From a virus, in the IMG/VR virus record IMGVR_UViG_3300030012_002265, positions 2,617 through 42,183 of that record: DNA of 39,567 nucleotides. The stretch is one strand, 5' to 3'. Position 1 is the first letter of the stretch. Each line of letters opens with the position of its first letter. Below, in pieces: positions 16,917-32,516 of the stretch. The notes under the pieces are model-generated. The model did no database searches. It saw only the letters and a list, made by a program, of their open reading frames with translations, and was not told the origin of the DNA. The position numbers and the translations under genes are program-made.

Positions 16917-17473
16917 TACTGTGCTACCTCCATCAATACTATTCTTGAAGATGACCTTCCATCGTAATCTGTAGAAGCATTATCACGACTAGATTTATTC
17001 ATAGTAATAGCTGACGTTCCACTGCCACCCATTTGAACTTTAAAATTAACAACAGATGTTGTATTTAAACTTTCTACCGCAACGAAAGATTGTGCATTAG
17101 GACCATTACCTGCATTATTAGCGTCATATTCAAAACCATGAACAAGTGGTCTTGCTCCATCAGCATCGGGTTCTGCTGACATTGAGTAACTACCACCACC
17201 AACATTTTTCATCACTCTAAAATATGCAAATGAACCAATGCTTGAGCCTATACAAATTGAAGCGTTTATCATAATTAAAGAACTTGCAAATTTTGGAGTT
17301 ATAGAACAATTAAGTCCAGTATCCACAAATCCATCATTTACTGATCTATTGTTTGTGGAAAATGTATCAGTCTTTATAGCGTGTGTTACTTGAATAATAG
17401 AACCACTAGGCATCTGCACAGTATTTGCCGTAGTCTTTCCCTCAATCTTATCTACTAATAATCTACTGGTCAT
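16916..17473 (-). CDS. Short tail fibre, LMEIAQ family (copy 1)
   Basis: This 185-residue protein has the N-terminal anchor TSRLLVDKIEGKTTANTVQM and a C-terminal VLMEVAQ. The middle is beta-rich (CSITPKFASSLIMINASICI). The same plan (SITP...SSKI, and ending LMEIAQ) is seen in the proteins at 19804 and 20319. These are typical of marine phage tail arrays, probably trimeric beta-sandwich fibres. Host-binding function is inferred. Confidence 0.7.
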   Translation of the reverse strand: MTSRLLVDKIEGKTTANTVQMPSGSIIQVTHAIKTDTFSTNNRSVNDGFVDTGLNCSITPKFASSLIMINASICIGSSIGSFAYFRVMKNVGGGSYSMSAEPDADGARPLVHGFEYDANNAGNGPNAQSFVAVESLNTTSVVNFKVQMGGSGTSAITMNKSSRDNASTDYDGRSSSRIVLMEVAQ

Positions 17474-22101: not shown

Positions 22102-25098
22102 TTATAAAGCAACCGCCATAGCAATCGCAAATCCTGCTGATGCTCCACTTCCTGTCTGCGAGTCGACATATGTCTTGATAGCTTTAGCCGATGCTAATGT
22201 GTCATCACTTCCAGAAACAGAGCTAATATCTGTATCTAACACCCCAGACTTTAAATTATCAACCTCAATATTAGACAATGTGTTGTTATCAGCGTCTATC
22301 GTCTTGTTTGTAATAGTTTGTGTACCGTTAAGCGTAACTGTACCTGTTACGTTGGCTTGTGCGTCAACATAAGCCTTTATAGCCTTTGCACTAGCTAACG
22401 TATCGTCATTACTCGACACACTGGCTATATCTGTATCGACTACACCAGAAGCAAAGTCAGCTACTTCTAAGTTTGAGATAGAGTTACCTGTGCCATTCGC
22501 ATCGAATGTTTTATTAGTAAATGTACCAGTATTAGAGAAAGTAACTTGTCCAGTACTTATGTAAGTCGATATTTGAGAAGCGTTTACATACTTAGTAGTG
22601 CCGTTATCATCTATTAAAAACTTATCTGTATCGGCAATAGTTATGGACGTACCATCAGTACCGCTATCTATTTGTATTGCACCACCTGCAACCTTATCAG
22701 CCGTTGTTATCTGGCTAAGTTTAGAGTCTGCAATTGACCCTGCAAGCTGTGCATTCGTTATTGTGCCACTCAATGATGATGTCGGATAGTTAGTAGCATC
22801 GCTTAGATCAAAAGCAGGGGTAGCATCTGAAGCACCTAACGCAAGACTAATACCACCAAAACTTACCGATGAGTTAGCCAACATGGTGTTTGACACCGTA
22901 CCACTATCTCCAGAGCCTACAAGTGTACCTGCACTGCTAGGAAGCTGTATAAGCTTACCGCCTTTACTAAACGTGCTAGTTGTGGCTACTGCATGATTTC
23001 CCATATAAGCGTGGGCAGAACACTGATAATACAGGATATTCGGTGTGTTTTCAGATACTTTTATCAGCGTGTAAGCACCAGATGACCCTGCTGTACCATT
23101 GGTGGTTACATCCGTAGTAAATGCTGTTGTCTTTCCTGCATCTAGATAAAATCGTAAAGGATGGTTTGCGTTACTGCTGTCTGATTGGTCAAATTTGTAA
23201 ACATATTCACTATTTGCTGTTGTATCATCCACTCCATTAAACATGATCGCAGGTGCTTCTATACCGTTGATATAGTATCCTAAAGAACTGCCATCCCCAG
23301 TGTAAGGATGTGCTGATGTTTTACTAGCCACTGTCACGGTAAAGGTTACTGGACTCGATGTTGTGCCAAATCGAGGAAATAGTGTTTTGTTGGTCAAGTC
23401 CTGAGTCGCAGTAGGGGTTACAATAGTCGAATCCACTTGGGAGGATGTGATAGTGTTGTTCGCTATTTTACCTGCCGTGACAGCGTTATTGGCTATCTTA
23501 GCCGTTGTAACATTTAAATCTGCAATCTTGGCTGTAGTGACATTACTATCTGTTATGGACGCTGTAACAACCGCATTTGATGCTAATTGGTCTGCTCCTA
23601 CCGCATCATCAGCTATCATAGCCTGTTCGACCGCATCATTTGCTATTGTTAACGCACCACTGTCTGAAACAGTAGCATCCCCAGATATTGCAGAGTTAAT
23701 ATACTTTTTGACCCTAGTAAGTTCTGATTTACGCTCCGTACCGTTTGCACCGTCATCGACAATAATCAAGTCAGCATCTACAAGGTCAGCACCTATGTCA
23801 GTAGCACCATCTATCTCTAAAGCACCAATATCGACCTTACCTGCTGTACTTATGGTATTTAGCTTACTGTCGGCAATACTTCCTGCTAATTTTGCGTTTG
23901 TAACCGCACTGTCGTTTATTTTAGCTGTTGTAACGTTAGCGTCCGTGATTTTTGCAGTAGTTACAGCGTCATCTGCTAATTTTGCTGTGGTCACGTTGCT
24001 GTCTGCAATATGAGCCGTGTCAATAGAGCCATCCACAAAATGCTCACTATCTATGCTGTCATCGGCTATTTTAGAGCCATTTACGGCATCTGCACCTATC
24101 TTTCCAGTGGTTATTGCACCGTTTGCTATCGTAACCGCACCAGAAGCACTGGCTGTCAAGTCAGTGGACAAACCAGTGTAAATTAACTTCTTTACCCTTG
24201 TAAACGTAGCTTTTCTTTCTGTTCCATTAGCACCATCATCAACAATTATTAAGTCTGCATCAGCCAAATCAGCATTAATATCTGTTGCTCCATCTATATC
24301 CAATGCTCCTATGTCTACTTTATTAGCTGTAGATATTGTTGCTAATTTTGTGTCGGATATAGAACCTGCTAACATGGAGTTCTCAACCGCACTAGAGGAC
24401 AATGTTATTGCACCATTAGAAGCCAAAGTAGCGTCACCTGATAGAGCTACTTCTTGATAGCTTGTGCCATCACCTACTAATATCTTACCTGATGTATTGT
24501 CTGGCATCCTTAATTGTGAACCTATCGTAACGTTTGCGTTAAATGAAGCATTACCTGCTTCTGACATATCTAAAGTAAGTGCTGTTATAGCAGACCCACC
24601 ATCGTTGCCCTTGAATATAATATCTTTGTCGGAAGTGGTTGATTTAATTACAAAATCAGTCGATGAATTGGTAAATTCGCCAAAGGTTGTACCTCCATCC
24701 TTGAGGAATACATCACCACCATCAGCATCCAGAACAATATCTCCTGCAACATCAAGAGTAAGATCACCAGAACTAAGATCAATTTCTGTACCGTCTATTG
24801 TGATGTTGTCTACTGTTACACCACCGTTTGCTGTAAGGCTTGTTGCATTCAAGGTAGTAAATGTACCTGCTCCTGCACTAGAGCCACCGATAGTTGTACC
24901 ATCTATCGTACCACCATCAATATTTGCTGTAGTAACGTCAATAGACGCTAGTACATCTTGCTCTATTGCGTTGTTTAGCTCTGCTCTTGTTATCTTCTTT
25001 GTTTCGTTGGTACTGCTGTCAACAACCAGAAATACATCATCTGTGGCTGTATTTGAGCCAGTTATGGCTGTCATATCGGATATTCGTTGTATTGGCAT
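22102..25098 (-). CDS. Large repetitive tail fibre with cupredoxin-like domain
   Basis: This is a 998-residue fibre. The N-terminus (PIQRISDMTAITGSNTATDD) is the usual attachment part of marine phage fibres. Residues about 330-410 and 487-552 consist of 7-8-residue repeats of the type DxxVTTAKIAD. A module of about 90 residues (KVDIGALDIDGATD...DGANGTERK) occurs twice, near 243-333 and 403-493. Residues 604-715 hold a cupredoxin-like domain with NHPLRFY (His646) and YYQCSAHAYMGN (Cys693, His696, Met699). The C-terminal part repeats SGVxDTDIxSVSxxDDTLAS. Its start overlaps TerL by one base. Confidence 0.85.
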   Translation of the reverse strand: MPIQRISDMTAITGSNTATDDVFLVVDSSTNETKKITRAELNNAIEQDVLASIDVTTANIDGGTIDGTTIGGSSAGAGTFTTLNATSLTANGGVTVDNITIDGTEIDLSSGDLTLDVAGDIVLDADGGDVFLKDGGTTFGEFTNSSTDFVIKSTTSDKDIIFKGNDGGSAITALTLDMSEAGNASFNANVTIGSQLRMPDNTSGKILVGDGTSYQEVALSGDATLASNGAITLSSSAVENSMLAGSISDTKLATISTANKVDIGALDIDGATDINADLADADLIIVDDGANGTERKATFTRVKKLIYTGLSTDLTASASGAVTIANGAITTGKIGADAVNGSKIADDSIDSEHFVDGSIDTAHIADSNVTTAKLADDAVTTAKITDANVTTAKINDSAVTNAKLAGSIADSKLNTISTAGKVDIGALEIDGATDIGADLVDADLIIVDDGANGTERKSELTRVKKYINSAISGDATVSDSGALTIANDAVEQAMIADDAVGADQLASNAVVTASITDSNVTTAKIADLNVTTAKIANNAVTAGKIANNTITSSQVDSTIVTPTATQDLTNKTLFPRFGTTSSPVTFTVTVASKTSAHPYTGDGSSLGYYINGIEAPAIMFNGVDDTTANSEYVYKFDQSDSSNANHPLRFYLDAGKTTAFTTDVTTNGTAGSSGAYTLIKVSENTPNILYYQCSAHAYMGNHAVATTSTFSKGGKLIQLPSSAGTLVGSGDSGTVSNTMLANSSVSFGGISLALGASDATPAFDLSDATNYPTSSLSGTITNAQLAGSIADSKLSQITTADKVAGGAIQIDSGTDGTSITIADTDKFLIDDNGTTKYVNASQISTYISTGQVTFSNTGTFTNKTFDANGTGNSISNLEVADFASGVVDTDIASVSSNDDTLASAKAIKAYVDAQANVTGTVTLNGTQTITNKTIDADNNTLSNIEVDNLKSGVLDTDISSVSGSDDTLASAKAIKTYVDSQTGSGASAGFAIAMAVAL

Positions 25099-26390
25099 TA
25101 GCTAACTCTCCACGCCACTTGACCGCTAGAACGGCTTAATTCTGTTAGACCCCACACTAAAGCATCTAGTCTGTCAGGCGATTGGTTTCTTTGCCCTGTA
25201 TAACTTATCATTTGATCTTCAAGTTTGGCGAATGAGCCGACATGATACACCTTTTTCTGTTCGTACAATGCTGATATAGGCTCTGCCCTTACCAATTTAC
25301 CTCTAGTAGCGTGTACAGACTTATAAGGAACTTGTGTGTCTACACTCCGTATTAATCGCTCCACTAGATCACCACCATTATTAGTTTCTGCTACAATGCG
25401 GTCTGCCTGATGCAAGTAAAATAAATCAACTGCTTTCCTTGCCCAATTGTCTGCACTTAACTTACTCGAACTATCTTCTAGCACATAGTATCTATTATTT
25501 TGACATTTGCCAACAACAATTATGCCTGTTTCGTCACTTGTTGCGTTAGCCGTGACCGCAGGGTCTATCGCAACAACTACCCTTTGCATCTCAGGCAAAT
25601 CATTTTTTTCTATCCGACAATCCTCTAACTGGCTATAAGTCCATAACGCACCATCTACATCTGTAAGAACTTCTGCATATAGCTCCTGCCTACCCATTGT
25701 AGTATTTTCGTATCGCTCTTTAAGGCTCTCTAACGCTGTGGATGCAAGGTTGTCTTGATTTTCAAAGGTATTACCCCTTGTAATGTACACATCTTCTCGC
25801 TCTAAAAGATTGCGTATAATTTTAATTGGTCTTGGTGTTGTCGTAATTACGCACTGCGGTCTTTCTCCTAACCGTAATCCAAACATCAGTTGGTCAAAGG
25901 TTTCAGGATATTGCCAAGCCGCCAACTCATCACACCATGCCCTATGGAACTGAGAACCCCTTAATCTATTGGGTTCTGTAGCACTAAACCCAACAATCTT
26001 AGAGCCATTCCATAATTGTATTTCTGAGCGTGATACTGAGTATCCCTCTACCCTGTCACCATCCTTAAAACATTGATCTGGTATGATTGACATCAAACCG
26101 CTTACGCCACCAAAACAAACCCTGCGTAAATCGCCAAACGTAGGTGCAATAACTGCTGTAATAGTATTTGGGTTACGCACGGCAAACTGCATTACATCTT
26201 CTGCACCAGTTCTTGTCTTACCCCACCCTCTACCTGCTAATATAAGCCATATATTGAAATCTACCTCTGGTGTTAGCTGTTTCCAACGTCCTCTAGCGTT
26301 CCAATTAGTGAGTGCTTGTACTACCCTCTGTTCGGATTCTTTCGATTCTAATTTGGTCGATAAGCTCAAGAGCTTCTCTGAATGTTTCAT
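25098..26390 (-). CDS. terL: Terminase large subunit (DNA-packaging motor)
   Basis: This 430-residue packaging ATPase-nuclease has Walker A AGRGWGKT at 52-59, Walker B with the catalytic pair DE at 154-155 (RAWCDELAAW), a motif III-like ITTTPRP, and a RNase H-like nuclease with Asp276 (VVAIDPAVTA), Glu335 (VAETNNGG) and Asp409 (RLDALVWG). It pumps DNA into the prohead through the portal and cuts concatemers. It overlaps the small-subunit gene by 86 bases; the start at 26390 follows AGAG. Confidence 0.95.
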   Translation of the reverse strand: MKHSEKLLSLSTKLESKESEQRVVQALTNWNARGRWKQLTPEVDFNIWLILAGRGWGKTRTGAEDVMQFAVRNPNTITAVIAPTFGDLRRVCFGGVSGLMSIIPDQCFKDGDRVEGYSVSRSEIQLWNGSKIVGFSATEPNRLRGSQFHRAWCDELAAWQYPETFDQLMFGLRLGERPQCVITTTPRPIKIIRNLLEREDVYITRGNTFENQDNLASTALESLKERYENTTMGRQELYAEVLTDVDGALWTYSQLEDCRIEKNDLPEMQRVVVAIDPAVTANATSDETGIIVVGKCQNNRYYVLEDSSSKLSADNWARKAVDLFYLHQADRIVAETNNGGDLVERLIRSVDTQVPYKSVHATRGKLVRAEPISALYEQKKVYHVGSFAKLEDQMISYTGQRNQSPDRLDALVWGLTELSRSSGQVAWRVS

Positions 26391-26856
26391 CTGTTTGCTC
26401 TTTATTTTCTATGCTGACGTTTTCGGTGGACTCGCCTAAAGCAAGTTTTACCATCTTTTGTATTTTAAGAGATGCGGAAGCTATAGAGTCTATCTGGTAT
26501 GGAGACATTTTATCATTATCTCTTACAGTTACCATCACTTTATTAAGTAACGCTTTTGATAAGTTGACAATTCTATCGTCAATATCTACACCCTCTTTAT
26601 TAAGTAATTGCCTTTTCTTTTTACTTCTCTCTTCATTATATCTTTGCAAAAACCTTTCTTGTTTTTCCTTCCAACCACCCCTTTGAGCCAATTTGTACAG
26701 AGTGTTTATGGAAATTTTGTGTTTTTTTGCTACTTCCTCAATAGTTGGAAAGACAAGAACACCTTGCTCTGTGCCGTATCCTTCAACAAAATACAATTCC
26801 ATACGGCTCTTCTCCGCTTGGGTGGTCTTTTTATATTTTTGATTTTTATTAGCCAT
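26305..26856 (-). CDS. terS: Putative terminase small subunit
   Basis: This 183-residue basic protein lies directly upstream of TerL. Residues 35-65 form a helix-turn-helix (TIEEVAKKHKISINTLYKLA followed by QRGGWKEKQ), like DNA-recognising small terminase subunits. The middle and C-terminal helices (LSKALLNKVMVTVRDND, FREALELIDQIRIERIR) would form the oligomer core. The assignment rests on HTH plus position; it is a diverged family. Confidence 0.72.
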   Translation of the reverse strand: MANKNQKYKKTTQAEKSRMELYFVEGYGTEQGVLVFPTIEEVAKKHKISINTLYKLAQRGGWKEKQERFLQRYNEERSKKKRQLLNKEGVDIDDRIVNLSKALLNKVMVTVRDNDKMSPYQIDSIASASLKIQKMVKLALGESTENVSIENKEQTDETFREALELIDQIRIERIRTEGSTSTH

Positions 26857-26867
26857 GTTTTGTATTT

Positions 26868-28097
26868 TTATGTATTTGTAGCACAGTTTTTTATTTCTTC
26901 AAAAGTTTTACCTGTTTTTTTGTGGATTGCCTTTTGTCCTGTATAATTTTGCCATCTGTTAATAATTACATCTACATATTTTGCATCTAATTCCATAATA
27001 AAGCTATTTCTTCCCAACTTTTCACAAGCTATCAGAGTACTACCAGAACCACCAAATAAATCTAGAACGTTTGAGCCTTGTTTAGATGAATTGTAGATGG
27101 CTTCCTCTGGTATAAAAACTGGCTTCTGAGTAGGATGGACATTTTTTGATTTATCATAACCTCCAAAATCCCAAACGGTAGTTTTTGTTCTATCATCTGT
27201 AAAATAGGGAGAGCCTTTACAGCAAAACAAACACGGTTCGTGAGCATATTGATATCTACCTCTTCCTAAAAGCATAGGTTTTTTCCATATTATCTGTTGA
27301 GAGAATTGAAACCCTGCATCTTTACTGGCTTGCAGAAAGTTGTCTGCTTCTCTGTCGGAGTGCCAAATATATGCTGATGAGTCTTTTTTTAAAACGCAAA
27401 ACGCATTTAGGAAACAATTGTAAAGAAAATTAAAAAACTCTTTTTTATCCATAACATCATTTTTTATTTTACCTAAGTCATTTTTGCTTGGGTTTGGTCT
27501 ATCTGCATTTGAATAATCTACGTTATAAGGAGGGTCTGTGTGTAAAAGGTCTGCTTTACTTCCATCCATCAGAATTTCTATAGAGTCTAAATCTTCACTA
27601 CTCCCACACATAACTGTGTGTTTTCCTAAAGACCATACATCACCAAAAGTGCTTATTGATTTTTCTGGAGTTTCTGGAATATCATCTTCATCTGTCTCCC
27701 CAACCACTTCTGCAAGATATTTTTCTGGATTGTCAAAACCTAACAGGTCTAAATTATAATCTAAAGAATGTAGTTCACCAACTTCAATTGCAAGTAACTC
27801 TTCATTCCAACCTGCGTTTAGAGCTAATTGATTATCAGCAATCACGTAAGCTTTTTTTTGTGCTTCAGTCAAATCTGTAAGTAAAACGCACGGTACACTT
27901 TCCAAACCCATTTTTTGCGATGCCAGAACTCTTCCGTGACCTGCAATAATCACATTTTCTTCATCTATTAGAACAGGATTTGTAAAACCAAATTCTTTAA
28001 TAGACGCACAAATCTGACTTATTTGTTCTGGCGAGTGCGTTCTTGCATTTCTTGCATATGGAATGAGTTTGTCTGTTTCTATTTTAGTTATTTGCAT
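26868..28097 (-). CDS. ParB-domain DNA methyltransferase
   Basis: This 409-residue fusion has a ParB-like nuclease/sulfiredoxin-fold domain at 1-110 (LIPYARNARTHSPEQISQIC, NVIIAGHGRVLASQKMG). The methyltransferase follows: DPPY at 188-191 (catalytic, amino-group methylation, N6A or N4C) and, later, the AdoMet motif DLFGGSGS at 346-353. The order catalytic then AdoMet motif is that of beta-class enzymes. Such fusions are frequent in phages and are thought to protect phage DNA from host restriction. A GAGGA ribosome site precedes ATG 28097. Confidence 0.9.
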   Translation of the reverse strand: MQITKIETDKLIPYARNARTHSPEQISQICASIKEFGFTNPVLIDEENVIIAGHGRVLASQKMGLESVPCVLLTDLTEAQKKAYVIADNQLALNAGWNEELLAIEVGELHSLDYNLDLLGFDNPEKYLAEVVGETDEDDIPETPEKSISTFGDVWSLGKHTVMCGSSEDLDSIEILMDGSKADLLHTDPPYNVDYSNADRPNPSKNDLGKIKNDVMDKKEFFNFLYNCFLNAFCVLKKDSSAYIWHSDREADNFLQASKDAGFQFSQQIIWKKPMLLGRGRYQYAHEPCLFCCKGSPYFTDDRTKTTVWDFGGYDKSKNVHPTQKPVFIPEEAIYNSSKQGSNVLDLFGGSGSTLIACEKLGRNSFIMELDAKYVDVIINRWQNYTGQKAIHKKTGKTFEEIKNCATNT

Positions 28098-28104
28098 TTG
28101 ATCC

Positions 28105-28602
28105 TCAAAAAAATAAACTGTCTAATTGAAAATGGTACACATTTATAGGTCTTTTTGATACTTCAAGCCATGTATTCTTGTAGTACTTACCTTTTCTTTC
28201 TCCTATGTGTCTCCACTTCATTGCTTTCCAGAACAAGTTAGATTCTAAATCATTGGCACATCCACAAACGAAATCATCACGACCTCTGCTTCTTCCCCAA
28301 TCAACTCCAACCTCTAACAATGCCTTTCCTCTTTCTATAAGCCGTGCATCATCCTGTATAGCTATCTGATTTACTCTTGCCCATTTTCCAAAGGACATTT
28401 TGAGAAATCCAACTGGGTCTTTATTCTCCTCACATATCCAGAGCTTGTCATTGCAGGTATCTGACCATGCTTTTCCTTTATTCACACCAGTAATAGACGC
28501 TTCATAAGCCATTCTAGGTATAAAACCTAATGCCTTACCTTCCTTTTTTGCTAAATCCAGTACATAGGGAAGATCATCTATTGTTGCTTCTCGTATTATC
28601 AT
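28105..28602 (-). CDS. GNAT-type acetyltransferase-like protein
   Basis: This 165-residue protein has a GNAT N-acetyltransferase plan: MIIREATIDDLPYVLDLAK (strand 1, helix 1), LWICEENKDPVGFLKMSFGK (strands 2-4), VNQIAIQDDARLIERGKALL (acyl-CoA loop region) and LFWKAMKWRHIGERKGKYYK (end). The substrate is unknown. It sits between a methyltransferase and a radical SAM gene and overlaps the latter by four bases. Mu Mom, a base-modifying enzyme, is a distant GNAT, so action on DNA bases is one possibility. Confidence 0.7.
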   Translation of the reverse strand: MIIREATIDDLPYVLDLAKKEGKALGFIPRMAYEASITGVNKGKAWSDTCNDKLWICEENKDPVGFLKMSFGKWARVNQIAIQDDARLIERGKALLEVGVDWGRSRGRDDFVCGCANDLESNLFWKAMKWRHIGERKGKYYKNTWLEVSKRPINVYHFQLDSLFF

Positions 28603-29588
28603 ACCGCCATTTCCATTTGATTGTCGTTTTTGTAAGTGGTCTTTGATGAGTGGTAATACTCTAAGTATTCATCCCATGTTTTGTGCCTATAATATTGCCT
28701 AACAACATATCTTTGGAAATTCTTCAAATCTCTTCTTTGCTGTAGAGGATCATAAACCATAGGGTAAGGCAAGACACCAAAATCAACCATTTTATTAAAC
28801 CTGTACCAAATACGCTCCCATGTTTCTCTCTTGTCATATCCAATCAGCATATAAGCCATAATCTGGTGGGGTTTAATACCGTTATCACATAATAATTTAA
28901 CACCTCTAAAAAATCTCGTTTCATCTCCAATATTATCCCAAGCTGTATAAATTCTTTTTGTCGTAAATGAATCATCTCTGAAATCAAGAGTTGCTAAATT
29001 TTCAGCAACGATTTCGTCTATCAATCTTATGTTAATACCTTGATTAAAACACACTTTAAAACCGCCATCTTGTATCTCTCTTACTCTTTGTTTCCAACTT
29101 TCTTCTGGCTGACCAAAAAAATCATTGTCTAATAAATGGAGCTTTTTGGGATATCCCTCACCCCTCCATATTTCATAAACGCTATTTACTTCATGATTTT
29201 TACCCTCTTTTGTAGGAACAACACAAAATTTACATTTTAATCTGCATCCTCTCTGCGTAAAGCCAAGACTAAATTCATAATTTGGGTAGAAACTGTAATC
29301 AAGTTCTTTACTATCGCCTATATAATCCTCTATTTTGAGTTTCCAGTTTGACGTACCTGTTCCACCTATAATTGCATCTGGATAGTTCAGTAAAAGTTTT
29401 TCTATCCTATGTTTACTAAATTGAAAAATAGAAGAAGCCATGACCATATCAAATTTAGGCTCAAATAAAGAGGGATTTACCGACCTAGTGAAAAAAACAT
29501 CATGCCCTTTACTTTTAAAATATGCACTAAGTTTCATAAGTGCCAAGTTTGGAAGCTTTCCGTCAATTTGCACAAGTTTAATTTTCAT
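28599..29588 (-). CDS. Radical SAM enzyme with B12-binding-like N-terminal domain
   Basis: This 329-residue protein carries the cluster motif GCRLKCKFC (Cys115, Cys119, Cys122) typical of radical SAM enzymes. Residues 1-90 resemble a cobalamin-binding Rossmann fold (MKIKLVQIDGKLPNLALMKL, DMVMASSIFQFSKHRIEKLL, AIIGGTGTS), but the usual DxHxxG motif is absent. Residues 150-250 form the partial TIM barrel (LHLLDNDFFGQPEESWKQRV, VCFNQGINIRLIDEI). The reaction is unknown. It is coupled by four-base overlaps to the GNAT and the MT-A70 genes. Confidence 0.88.
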   Translation of the reverse strand: MKIKLVQIDGKLPNLALMKLSAYFKSKGHDVFFTRSVNPSLFEPKFDMVMASSIFQFSKHRIEKLLLNYPDAIIGGTGTSNWKLKIEDYIGDSKELDYSFYPNYEFSLGFTQRGCRLKCKFCVVPTKEGKNHEVNSVYEIWRGEGYPKKLHLLDNDFFGQPEESWKQRVREIQDGGFKVCFNQGINIRLIDEIVAENLATLDFRDDSFTTKRIYTAWDNIGDETRFFRGVKLLCDNGIKPHQIMAYMLIGYDKRETWERIWYRFNKMVDFGVLPYPMVYDPLQQRRDLKNFQRYVVRQYYRHKTWDEYLEYYHSSKTTYKNDNQMEMAV

Positions 29589-30157
29589 ATTTCATTTCCC
29601 CAAGCATCCCAACCATTGTACCTTTGCCGTGCAAAAAGCTCTATGCGTGGAAGATCACCAACTAATTCTACAATTTTATCTCTGGTGCTATCAGGCTTTC
29701 TTGAATGTTCTCGCACTGGGTCATAAATGAGTTGATGCACAGACTTCGATTGTCTGGATATTGACCCTTTTTTTGCTAACAAACAAAGCTCTGCATTTGA
29801 TCTTGTCCAGTATCCTAAACCCCAAAAGCTTTCAAAACTATCCTCTGGTAAGAACGAACTCTGATTTATTGCATATGTTTTTTTTGTTTTGACCCAAACG
29901 AAAGCACAGGTTTTGTAACTAAAACCCCATCTCTTGATGGTCTCAAACCCTTCCTGAAGTAAGGGAAATGTAACCCAGATAAACAGCATACAATCCTCAT
30001 TCGTTATATCTTTAACAGGAAGATTATAAATATCTTCTATACTCATGCAGTTATAATGCCTGTCAGGTGACTTTTCCTTACCGCTCTCGCTGTAAGTTTC
30101 AAACCGCCAAGGTGGGTCAGCATAGATAATATTATACTTTTTACTGGGTAAAGTCAT
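29585..30157 (-). CDS. MT-A70-family N6-adenine methyltransferase
   Basis: This 190-residue protein has DPPW at 14-17 (YNIIYADPPWRFE), the catalytic motif of MT-A70 enzymes. It continues CMLFIWVTFPLLQEGFETIK, LGYWTRSNAELCLLAKKG, HSRKPDSTRDKIVELVGDLP and IELFARQRYNGWDAWGNEI, which agree along its whole length with the phage members of the family. It would methylate adenine at N6 in phage DNA. The start overlaps the primase-helicase stop by four bases. Confidence 0.92.
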   Translation of the reverse strand: MTLPSKKYNIIYADPPWRFETYSESGKEKSPDRHYNCMSIEDIYNLPVKDITNEDCMLFIWVTFPLLQEGFETIKRWGFSYKTCAFVWVKTKKTYAINQSSFLPEDSFESFWGLGYWTRSNAELCLLAKKGSISRQSKSVHQLIYDPVREHSRKPDSTRDKIVELVGDLPRIELFARQRYNGWDAWGNEI

Positions 30158-31875
30158 TCATAACACCGTGTTTTCATATTAAAAAGAAACTCACATTGCC
30201 CTATATTACCATAAACCCCTTGCTCTCTTATCTTTCGAGTAATTATTTGTGTCGTATTTACTTCAAAATCTCTATGCACAACTAATCCAACATCACAAAG
30301 ATTTGCCCAATGAGCCGACCCAGATACTTGATACAAGTCAGGTGGCGGTATAACCCCACTGTCGTTTCTGTGTAATTTATGAGGATGAGCTACCATCCAG
30401 ACAACCATTTGATGATTTCGTGCAAACTGCTGACATTTTACGATTATATCACGAATATGCTCATCTTCACGCTTATTATTGCTACGCTCTGGACTTATTT
30501 GATTAAAAGGGTCAATAACTAAACCGTTTACTCCGAACCGTTGTTTAGCACTTTTGCACTTCTTTAAAATAAAATCTATTGTGGGTATTTCGTCTGTGTT
30601 TTCTATAAATTTGAAATGATTATCAATAAAATCTATCGCTCCATCAAGTTCGTCCTGCGATATCCGTTCAAACATTCCAATATCAAAAGGTTTACGAACT
30701 CTTTTTTCAGATAATCGCCTTATATGGTTCGGTGTAGAGTGTTCAGGTGAGTAAACTACAAACTTCCACCCATACTTCTCTGCTAAATTCATTAGTATTT
30801 GGTCAAGAAAATTACTTTTTCCGTGATTAGGTATGCCAGTAATCAGGTTAAATGTAGTGGGCATAACCTTATAAATTTGATCTAATTCCTCTAAACCAGT
30901 AGAAAATACCTTCTGTACTTTACCTTCGTAGATATCTTGTATTGCTTGTTTATATTCTTTCGCTCCATGTAACCCTTCAATTGGGAAAGGTTTTGCTCCG
31001 TCAATAAACTCTCTAACCTTCTCCTTGCCTAGCTTTATGAGACATTCATTAGAGTCTTTTATTCCCTGTGGAAAGGAGACTACCTTACAAATATCTTTGC
31101 CAAATCTGTATATTAATTCAAGCTGTAAGGCTTTACCTGCTTCGTCTTGATCGGTACAAATCGTTATTTCTTCAGCATCAAATATGAAATCACTATTTTC
31201 TAAAGCCTTAAATCTTCTGTCATTATCATCATATTTTGCTGTTTTCGATGCTCCGTCTTTTAAAGATACAACGTTTTCATAGCCACACTCATACAAAGCT
31301 ATTACGTCCATTTCCCCTTCAACAAATATCAATTCTTTTGTTTTTTGTGTATCCCAGTGCTTTTTAAGTCTATCTATGTTGTAAATACTCTGTATTGCAC
31401 CCTTCATCTGAGTAAAAACCTTGTCTTTGGTTCTTTCTTTTACGTTAACAACATCGCCATCTAGTAAGTAGGGAAAACACAACTTCTGATTATGAGTGTA
31501 AAGTTCAAAAGCATCTGCGGTTTGCTTACTGATACGTCTTGACGCAAGCCACTCGATTGCTTCATCCGAAAGACCTTTTTTTATAGTAGGTATTTTAGGC
31601 TTGCTTATAGTTTTTGCAATTTGTCCATCATTACTAAATCCTTTTTGACCCTGCGAGTTTGAGAATTGATTATTGAATCCACCTTCCCATTCACAGTGAT
31701 GACATCGCCATTTGATGTGGTCAGTGTCAATATTGACGCTTAAACATCTGTCGAACTTATTTTTTCTATTATGAGAACACTTTGGACACGTTATTTTTTG
31801 CTGTCCAATTGAATAATTTTGTAAGTGTATTCCTTCTTCTCTTGCTTTTGTTATATAATTTTCATTTTGATACAT
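30154..31875 (-). CDS. Primase-helicase (T7 gp4-like)
   Basis: This is a 573-residue, three-domain replication protein. A zinc ribbon has Cys30, Cys33, Cys58 and Cys61 (CPKC, CHHC). A TOPRIM domain holds VEGEMD at 185-190 and TDQDEAG near 242-247. A DnaB-like RecA fold has Walker A GIPNHGKS at 347-354, then YSPEH, INGLVIDP-type Walker B (GVNGLVIDPFNQ) and VWMVAHPHK. It unwinds DNA and primes lagging-strand synthesis in phages. No DNA polymerase is seen in the window, so it likely works with the host polymerase. Confidence 0.92.
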   Translation of the reverse strand: MYQNENYITKAREEGIHLQNYSIGQQKITCPKCSHNRKNKFDRCLSVNIDTDHIKWRCHHCEWEGGFNNQFSNSQGQKGFSNDGQIAKTISKPKIPTIKKGLSDEAIEWLASRRISKQTADAFELYTHNQKLCFPYLLDGDVVNVKERTKDKVFTQMKGAIQSIYNIDRLKKHWDTQKTKELIFVEGEMDVIALYECGYENVVSLKDGASKTAKYDDNDRRFKALENSDFIFDAEEITICTDQDEAGKALQLELIYRFGKDICKVVSFPQGIKDSNECLIKLGKEKVREFIDGAKPFPIEGLHGAKEYKQAIQDIYEGKVQKVFSTGLEELDQIYKVMPTTFNLITGIPNHGKSNFLDQILMNLAEKYGWKFVVYSPEHSTPNHIRRLSEKRVRKPFDIGMFERISQDELDGAIDFIDNHFKFIENTDEIPTIDFILKKCKSAKQRFGVNGLVIDPFNQISPERSNNKREDEHIRDIIVKCQQFARNHQMVVWMVAHPHKLHRNDSGVIPPPDLYQVSGSAHWANLCDVGLVVHRDFEVNTTQIITRKIREQGVYGNIGQCEFLFNMKTRCYE

Positions 31876-32516
31876 TATCCCACCAATTGATTTTTATTGA
31901 ATTCCCTTGTTTTTTCTTTTTCAACAGTTTCCCACCGTTGTTGATTTAGCCAAGTAGTGCAGTGCGGTACAAATTTTACGTCTTTACCTCTATGTATTTT
32001 GCCATACTCCCTGCATAACTTAAACAATTCTTGTTTATCTATTATTTTTTTTGTTACCTTTTTCCAGTTATCATACGCTTTTTTCTTTGAACCATCGTTC
32101 CTTGGATATTCCTTCCAAAACAACTCAAAATCTTCTTCATACATATTAGGTTCTTTATTACTGGTTATATGGGGTGTCACTATGATACTAGGGGGGGTCT
32201 CTGTGTGATACTCATGGGTGTCAGCCTGATACCCCTCTAGTGCTACTTTAAGAAGATAAAGATTACTTGTCTGCCTATTACCACCCTCAAACTGCGTAAA
32301 TCTTTCTTTCCTTTCTATCATTCCACCCTGTTCAAGAACTCTTATACAGCGAATAACCGTGGCTCTGCTTAACTCTGTAAGCTCACAAAGCTTCTTAAAA
32401 CTGGGATAACATTCATTTTTTTCATTGGCAAAGTTAGCCAACATCAATAAAACAAGCTTACTATTACTGCTACCAGTTTTCTGCTTAGATGCCCATGCTA
32501 AAGCCGTCCAACTCAT
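31875..32516 (-). CDS. Replication initiator with helix-turn-helix (O-like)
   Basis: This 213-residue protein has a winged helix in residues 20-75 (SKLVLLMLANFANEKNECYP, KLCELTELSRATVIRCIRVL, GMIERKERFTQFEGG), of the helix_turn_helix_36 / phage O type. The C-terminal part (FELFWKEYPRNDGSKKKAYD...WKKVTKK, then CTTWLNQQRWE) is the module that in similar proteins recruits helicase. Its stop abuts the primase-helicase start by one base. Origin binding is expected but no iteron array was seen in it. Confidence 0.8.
   Translation of the reverse strand: MSWTALAWASKQKTGSSNSKLVLLMLANFANEKNECYPSFKKLCELTELSRATVIRCIRVLEQGGMIERKERFTQFEGGNRQTSNLYLLKVALEGYQADTHEYHTETPPSIIVTPHITSNKEPNMYEEDFELFWKEYPRNDGSKKKAYDNWKKVTKKIIDKQELFKLCREYGKIHRGKDVKFVPHCTTWLNQQRWETVEKEKTREFNKNQLVG

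Follow-up and report, generated by a model that had tools for sequence, protein, structure and literature searches.

Gene organization of the locus

The window analyzed here, a 39,567 nt stretch of DNA, comes from a virus record of 42,183 bases (IMGVR_UViG_3300030012_002265) that represents a metagenomic tailed phage. Between the replication genes and the terminase genes of this phage, four genes are located on the minus strand, all with ATG start codons and transcribed in the order MT-A70 methyltransferase, radical SAM protein, GNAT-fold acyltransferase, and ParB-fused methyltransferase (Table 1). All four open reading frames were found with the coordinates and classes given in an initial annotation of the sequence, which had proposed that the quartet forms a pathway for the hypermodification of phage DNA. 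The large terminase subunit encoded downstream of the quartet is 47% identical to those of Roseobacter phage CRP-6 and Microcystis phage Mae-JY09. The region 22102–25098 encodes a repeat-rich (TTAKI-type) tail fibre-like protein of 998 aa (PHROG_30742, tail fibre, E-value 2.7e-35), and its gene and the large terminase gene overlap by one base.

Table 1. Genes of the quartet and of the flanking replication and packaging modules
Product	Position	Strand	Basis of assignment
Replication initiation protein	31875..32516	-	PHROG_270 (3.9e-32)
DNA primase/helicase	30154..31875	-	Pfam Toprim and DnaB_C, PHROG_239; 4-base overlap with MT-A70 gene
Predicted MT-A70-type adenine-N6 DNA methyltransferase, 190 aa	29585..30157	-	Pfam MT-A70, PHROG_359, PADLOC, DPPW motif
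Radical SAM protein, PHROG_9298 family, 329 aa	28599..29588	-	PHROG_9298, Radical_SAM, CxxxCxxC motif, AF2 model
GNAT-fold acyltransferase (predicted), 165 aa	28105..28602	-	AF2 model, VIA-align; small family of uncultured phages
ParB N-terminal domain and beta-class N6_N4 DNA methyltransferase, 409 aa	26868..28097	-	Pfam, PHROG_498, PADLOC, motifs
Probable terminase small subunit	26305..26856	-	weak PHROG_6299 match (6e-4) and position
Terminase large subunit	25098..26390	-	Pfam Terminase_6N and 6C

Three of the four genes are connected by 4-base overlaps (GNAT/radical SAM, 28599–28602; radical SAM/MT-A70, 29585–29588), as described in the initial annotation. These overlaps are real but not distinctive of the quartet, because the same overlap is found between the primase/helicase and MT-A70 genes and in three gene pairs at positions 17470, 20319, and 21302, in the region from 16.9 to 21.8 kb. 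Thus, the overlaps are a sign of the generally tight gene packing of this phage and carry little information, and they were rejected as proof of a common pathway. The quartet is probably co-transcribed with its neighbors, which does not require joint action of the encoded proteins.

The two methyltransferases

The two methyltransferases belong to different classes, beta-class N6_N4 and MT-A70, as had been proposed initially and as indicated by both Pfam matches and motifs. The ParB-methyltransferase matches Pfam N6_N4_Mtase with an E-value of 3.8e-33, and its DPPY motif at position 188 precedes a DLFGGSG motif at position 346, which is the order of the beta class. Its N-terminal ParB domain matches the ParB families PHROG_15396 (1e-56) and PHROG_620 (7.7e-54), and scores 26.1 bits against Pfam ParB_N (9e-6), just under the cut-off of 26.3. 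Near its whole length, the protein matches PHROG_498 (9.4e-152), and the PADLOC Type II methyltransferase model PDLC03229 is matched over positions 1–399 (2.1e-122). It resembles the phage ParB-fused DNA methyltransferases represented by these two models near full length, including the ParB domain, with no notable difference. Matches were found in 1,053 phage records, and the relatives in isolated phages are 40–47% identical.

The MT-A70 protein is well above the Pfam cut-off (4.8e-26; 92 bits versus 23.9), carries a DPPW motif at residue 14, and matches PHROG_359 (3.2e-80) and a PADLOC Type II methyltransferase model (4.7e-64), so that both methyltransferases of the window have full-length matches to Type II methyltransferase models. 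By sequence, it also matches METTL3 and MT-A70 protein structures. At least 592 relatives are present in IMG/VR, and gp32 of Methylophilales phage Venkman is 59% identical over the full length, although the genes next to it in Venkman differ. With their DPPY and DPPW motifs, both enzymes are expected to yield N6-methyladenine. The MT-A70 protein and the ParB-fused enzyme would each act alone as an adenine-N6 DNA methyltransferase, with m6A as the predicted product.

The GNAT-fold protein

The GNAT-fold protein does not match any Pfam family at cut-off, the match to Acetyltransf_1 (0.0039) falling below it. Its AF2 model (pLDDT 81) has a clear GNAT fold, for which VIA-align yielded Z scores of 18 to CBU0801 and Ard1 and of 16–18 to ordinary protein N-acetyltransferases, with the protein N-terminal acetyltransferases being closest. 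The CoA-binding motif R/QxxGxG/A is typical of GNATs, although not universal among them. In the corresponding region, R87-L-I-E90-R-G92, the central glycine is replaced family-wide and the last glycine is kept. Four cysteines (C50, C57, C113, and C115) are invariant in all 15 aligned relatives (alignment A3). The modeled fold suggests an ordinary CoA-dependent N-acyltransferase that would act on an amine, and a host protein or a small molecule is a more likely target than DNA.

The Mom protein of phage Mu is likewise a GNAT-superfamily enzyme of a phage and modifies adenine in DNA (PMC7824862). The candidate assignment of the window GNAT as a Mom homologue was rejected: Mu Mom (PDB 8bv8) scores 2.4e-75 against PF25680, whereas the window GNAT has no match to this family, and the profile comparison gave a probability of 0.4%. 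In addition, the family of the window GNAT was not seen in modification operons. The absence of structure 8bv8 from the best 50 matches of the fold searches carries no weight.

Relatives of the GNAT were found in 17 phage loci with varied settings, beside terminase, replication, or lysis genes. A ParB gene is located near the GNAT gene only in L036 (with its duplicate L197) and in L196, so that a conserved GNAT-ParB pair is not general. Neither the window GNAT nor its relative L190 has a match among 50,697 phage records.

The radical SAM protein

The radical SAM protein is a member of PHROG_9298 (1.5e-52). Its match to Pfam Radical_SAM (8.9e-5) is below the cut-off, and 25 of the 26 family members analyzed matched this family. 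The CxxxCxxC motif at positions 115–122 (C115, C119, C122) is invariant in the 26 sequences and is present in every relative examined. With a 4Fe-4S cluster and SAM as predicted ligands, the protein would perform 5'-deoxyadenosyl-radical chemistry.

The AF2 model (pLDDT 79, pTM 0.66) consists of an N-terminal Rossmann domain and a radical SAM core. A Foldseek comparison of this model with the PDB returned only TIM-barrel noise, but VIA-align of the same candidates was informative: the highest Z scores were obtained for the B12-binding-domain radical SAM enzymes MgmA (11.5), AprD4 (11.3), TsrM (10.4), and OxsB (within 10–11.5), followed by RimO and MiaB. Residues 1–91 align with a corrinoid protein at a Z score of 7.6. 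The B12-binding-like domain assumed in the initial annotation is therefore supported by the fold of the model, whereas neither motifs nor Pfam matches point to it: the DxHxxG motif is absent from the window protein, and the Pfam B12-binding domain was matched by none of the 26 family members. Many class B radical SAM enzymes lack DxHxxG. The domain layout is common to the window protein and MgmA, TsrM, OxsB, and AprD4 (Z 10–11.5 over 275–288 residues), but the window protein is shorter and only 8–16% identical, in addition to the missing motif and Pfam match.

Methylthiotransferase activity, as in MiaB and RimO, was rejected as a candidate because the three N-terminal cysteines of the second cluster are missing; C115 is the first cysteine of the protein, followed by those at positions 119, 122, 180, and 234, and the lack of any cysteine before C115 makes this activity unlikely. 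The family profile also matched designer PPR proteins (1e-13), which was taken as helical-repeat noise because the matches are confined to about positions 222–298.

The family is widespread, with at least 545 confirmed IMG/VR stretches and 473 members in bacterial and archaeal genomes. The PHROG_9298 proteins of Bacteroides phage LoVEphage, archaeal virus vir215, and Oscillospiraceae phage NatCom_21982 are 27–32% identical to the window protein near full length and carry the same CxxxCxxC motif. In NatCom_21982 the radical SAM gene overlaps a ParB-methyltransferase gene. Unlike in the window, no MT-A70 gene or related GNAT gene was found alongside in these three viruses.

Distribution of the four genes among relatives

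The initial annotation had suggested looking for the quartet, or for pairs of its genes, in other phages. This search did not reveal a second quartet among the radical SAM loci, the GNAT loci, the annotated phage loci, 45 ParB-methyltransferase loci, and 80 MT-A70 loci. Neither the radical SAM gene nor the GNAT gene was found around the 80 MT-A70 relatives, and only one of the 45 ParB-methyltransferase relatives (L066, on the same contig as L003) is accompanied by a radical SAM gene. Among about 35 close radical SAM relatives, the GNAT was not found, an MT-A70 gene was found once, at a distance of 6 kb, and ParB-methyltransferase-like genes were found in six cases. The GNAT and the radical SAM gene never occur together in the profile searches, with the radical SAM gene in 0 of 20 GNAT loci and the GNAT in 0 of 135 radical SAM loci, and the order of no pair of the four genes is kept in any relative found; most of these relatives are on metagenome fragments, on which absence is weak evidence, and the GNAT relatives are few.

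At the DNA level, similarity to relatives ends at the borders of single genes. The radical SAM gene is 84% identical to L001–L003 from position 28612 to 29597, that is, over the gene only, and the corresponding regions are about 29580–30158 for the MT-A70 gene, 28108–28556 for the GNAT gene, and 26889–28043 for the ParB-methyltransferase gene. This pattern indicates gene-by-gene mosaicism. The settings of radical SAM relatives with 85–91% identity are unrelated: in L005–L006 the gene follows a 627-aa primase/helicase-like protein, and in L002 and L003 it precedes other terminases. Each of the four genes thus appears to move between phages alone, and the four probably do not form one DNA-hypermodification pathway. 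The arrangement was also not described in the mainly open-access literature searched on radical SAM proteins with ParB, GNAT, and MT-A70 or on phage hypermodification.

Interpretation of the quartet

The explanation that we consider probable is a mosaic of accessory genes, in which two plain m6A methyltransferases are accompanied by a GNAT and a radical SAM enzyme that are each independent. Located between the replication and packaging modules, this stretch would have been assembled gene by gene. Each methyltransferase would mark its own target sequences in the phage DNA and so counter host restriction, and the ParB-like domain would probably be an accessory, DNA-contacting part. The anti-restriction function proposed in the initial annotation is plausible in view of the two methyltransferases, but the route via a hypermodified base did not find support. 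The GNAT would acylate an amine with a CoA donor, and the radical SAM protein would perform radical chemistry independently of its neighbors. More generally, neighboring accessory genes of phages are easily mistaken for a pathway.

In a narrower form of the mosaic, which is possible but rather unlikely, the two enzymes would serve host takeover or counter-defence, the radical SAM protein modifying host or phage RNA or a peptide and the GNAT acetylating a host protein, for example RNA polymerase. A phage GNAT acting on host RNA polymerase has been reported, namely Rac of phiKMV (PMC7824862), and the protein N-terminal acetyltransferases are closest to the GNAT model. Radical SAM enzymes with a layout like that of the window protein include enzymes for RNA, peptides, and natural products. 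However, a shared fold is no proof of a shared substrate, and this proposal leaves unexplained the association between radical SAM and methyltransferase genes described below.

Radical SAM genes beside methyltransferase genes

The mosaic explanation is challenged by the finding that the radical SAM family occurs near methyltransferase genes beyond chance. In 15 of 135 radical SAM loci (dereplicated at 90%), a methyltransferase gene is directly adjacent, compared to about 6 (6.1) expected for random neighboring genes (p about 0.0004), figures that are indicative because the sample consists of best-scoring rather than random matches, open reading frames were assigned by an automatic procedure, and some of the tested loci also contributed to the methyltransferase profiles. 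The ratio was 11 of 90 versus 4.1 expected upon dereplication at 70% (p 0.0005). The signal fades at strong dereplication (50%; 3 of 22 loci versus 1.2 expected, p 0.1), and for the IMG/VR subset alone p was 0.05. The density of methyltransferase genes decreases from 6.4% of the adjacent slots to 1.5% at a distance of 4–8 genes, and no comparable excess was observed for two control families, SNF2 helicase and Gp37. The 17 adjacent methyltransferase ORFs without exception share the strand of the radical SAM gene, some with a 4-base overlap (L257, L287, L341), and the ParB-methyltransferase is the most common of them. Furthermore, 10 of 20 phage records searched for four methyltransferase families contain one, in six cases less than 1 kb from the radical SAM gene (1.4–1.8 expected, p 0.0007–0.003). 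In L003 (111–2497), close relatives of the radical SAM gene (91%) and the ParB-methyltransferase gene (66%) are only 210 bases apart, in reversed order compared to the window, which likewise speaks against full independence of the two.

These observations are consistent with a radical SAM protein that acts as a DNA-modification partner of methyltransferases, often ParB-fused ones, for example on the target or the methylated base, with the GNAT as a passenger. Moreover, a weakly ParB-like protein was found in three further loci, in all of which its gene immediately precedes the radical SAM gene (L222, 4243–5370; L224, 6265–7347; L325, 5012–6004); the two members scanned matched PHROG_4715 at 0.0026 and 2.6e-4, and the L222 member has no Pfam match. 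We nevertheless consider such a partnership unlikely. Most loci do not have a methyltransferase gene nearby, four phage records of 40–68 kb contain none of the four families searched, and hotspots of accessory genes could cause the same pattern. The methyltransferase partners belong to at least four classes, which does not point to one pathway. The association is real, but modest and loose. Likewise unlikely is the general form of this idea, in which the widespread phage family, with its B12-binding-like domain, would modify DNA beside methyltransferases, especially ParB-fused ones, and make adenine or cytosine modifications by radical chemistry.

The initially proposed pathway of all four genes to a hypermodified base would be a new route, and it could draw on the adjacency and overlaps in the window, on the precedent of Mu Mom (PMC7824862), and on the radical SAM-methyltransferase link, but it is highly improbable given a quartet seen once, a GNAT that is unlike Mom and whose relatives are unlinked to methyltransferases, and overlaps that are general in this phage.

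The lead that remains is the radical SAM family itself, which is represented by hundreds of loci in phages and bacteria and is adjacent to methyltransferase genes at about 2.5 times the rate of nearby genes. A weak excess beside the radical SAM gene was also observed for PAPS-reductase-like (PP-loop) genes, in L263, L284, L044, and other loci.
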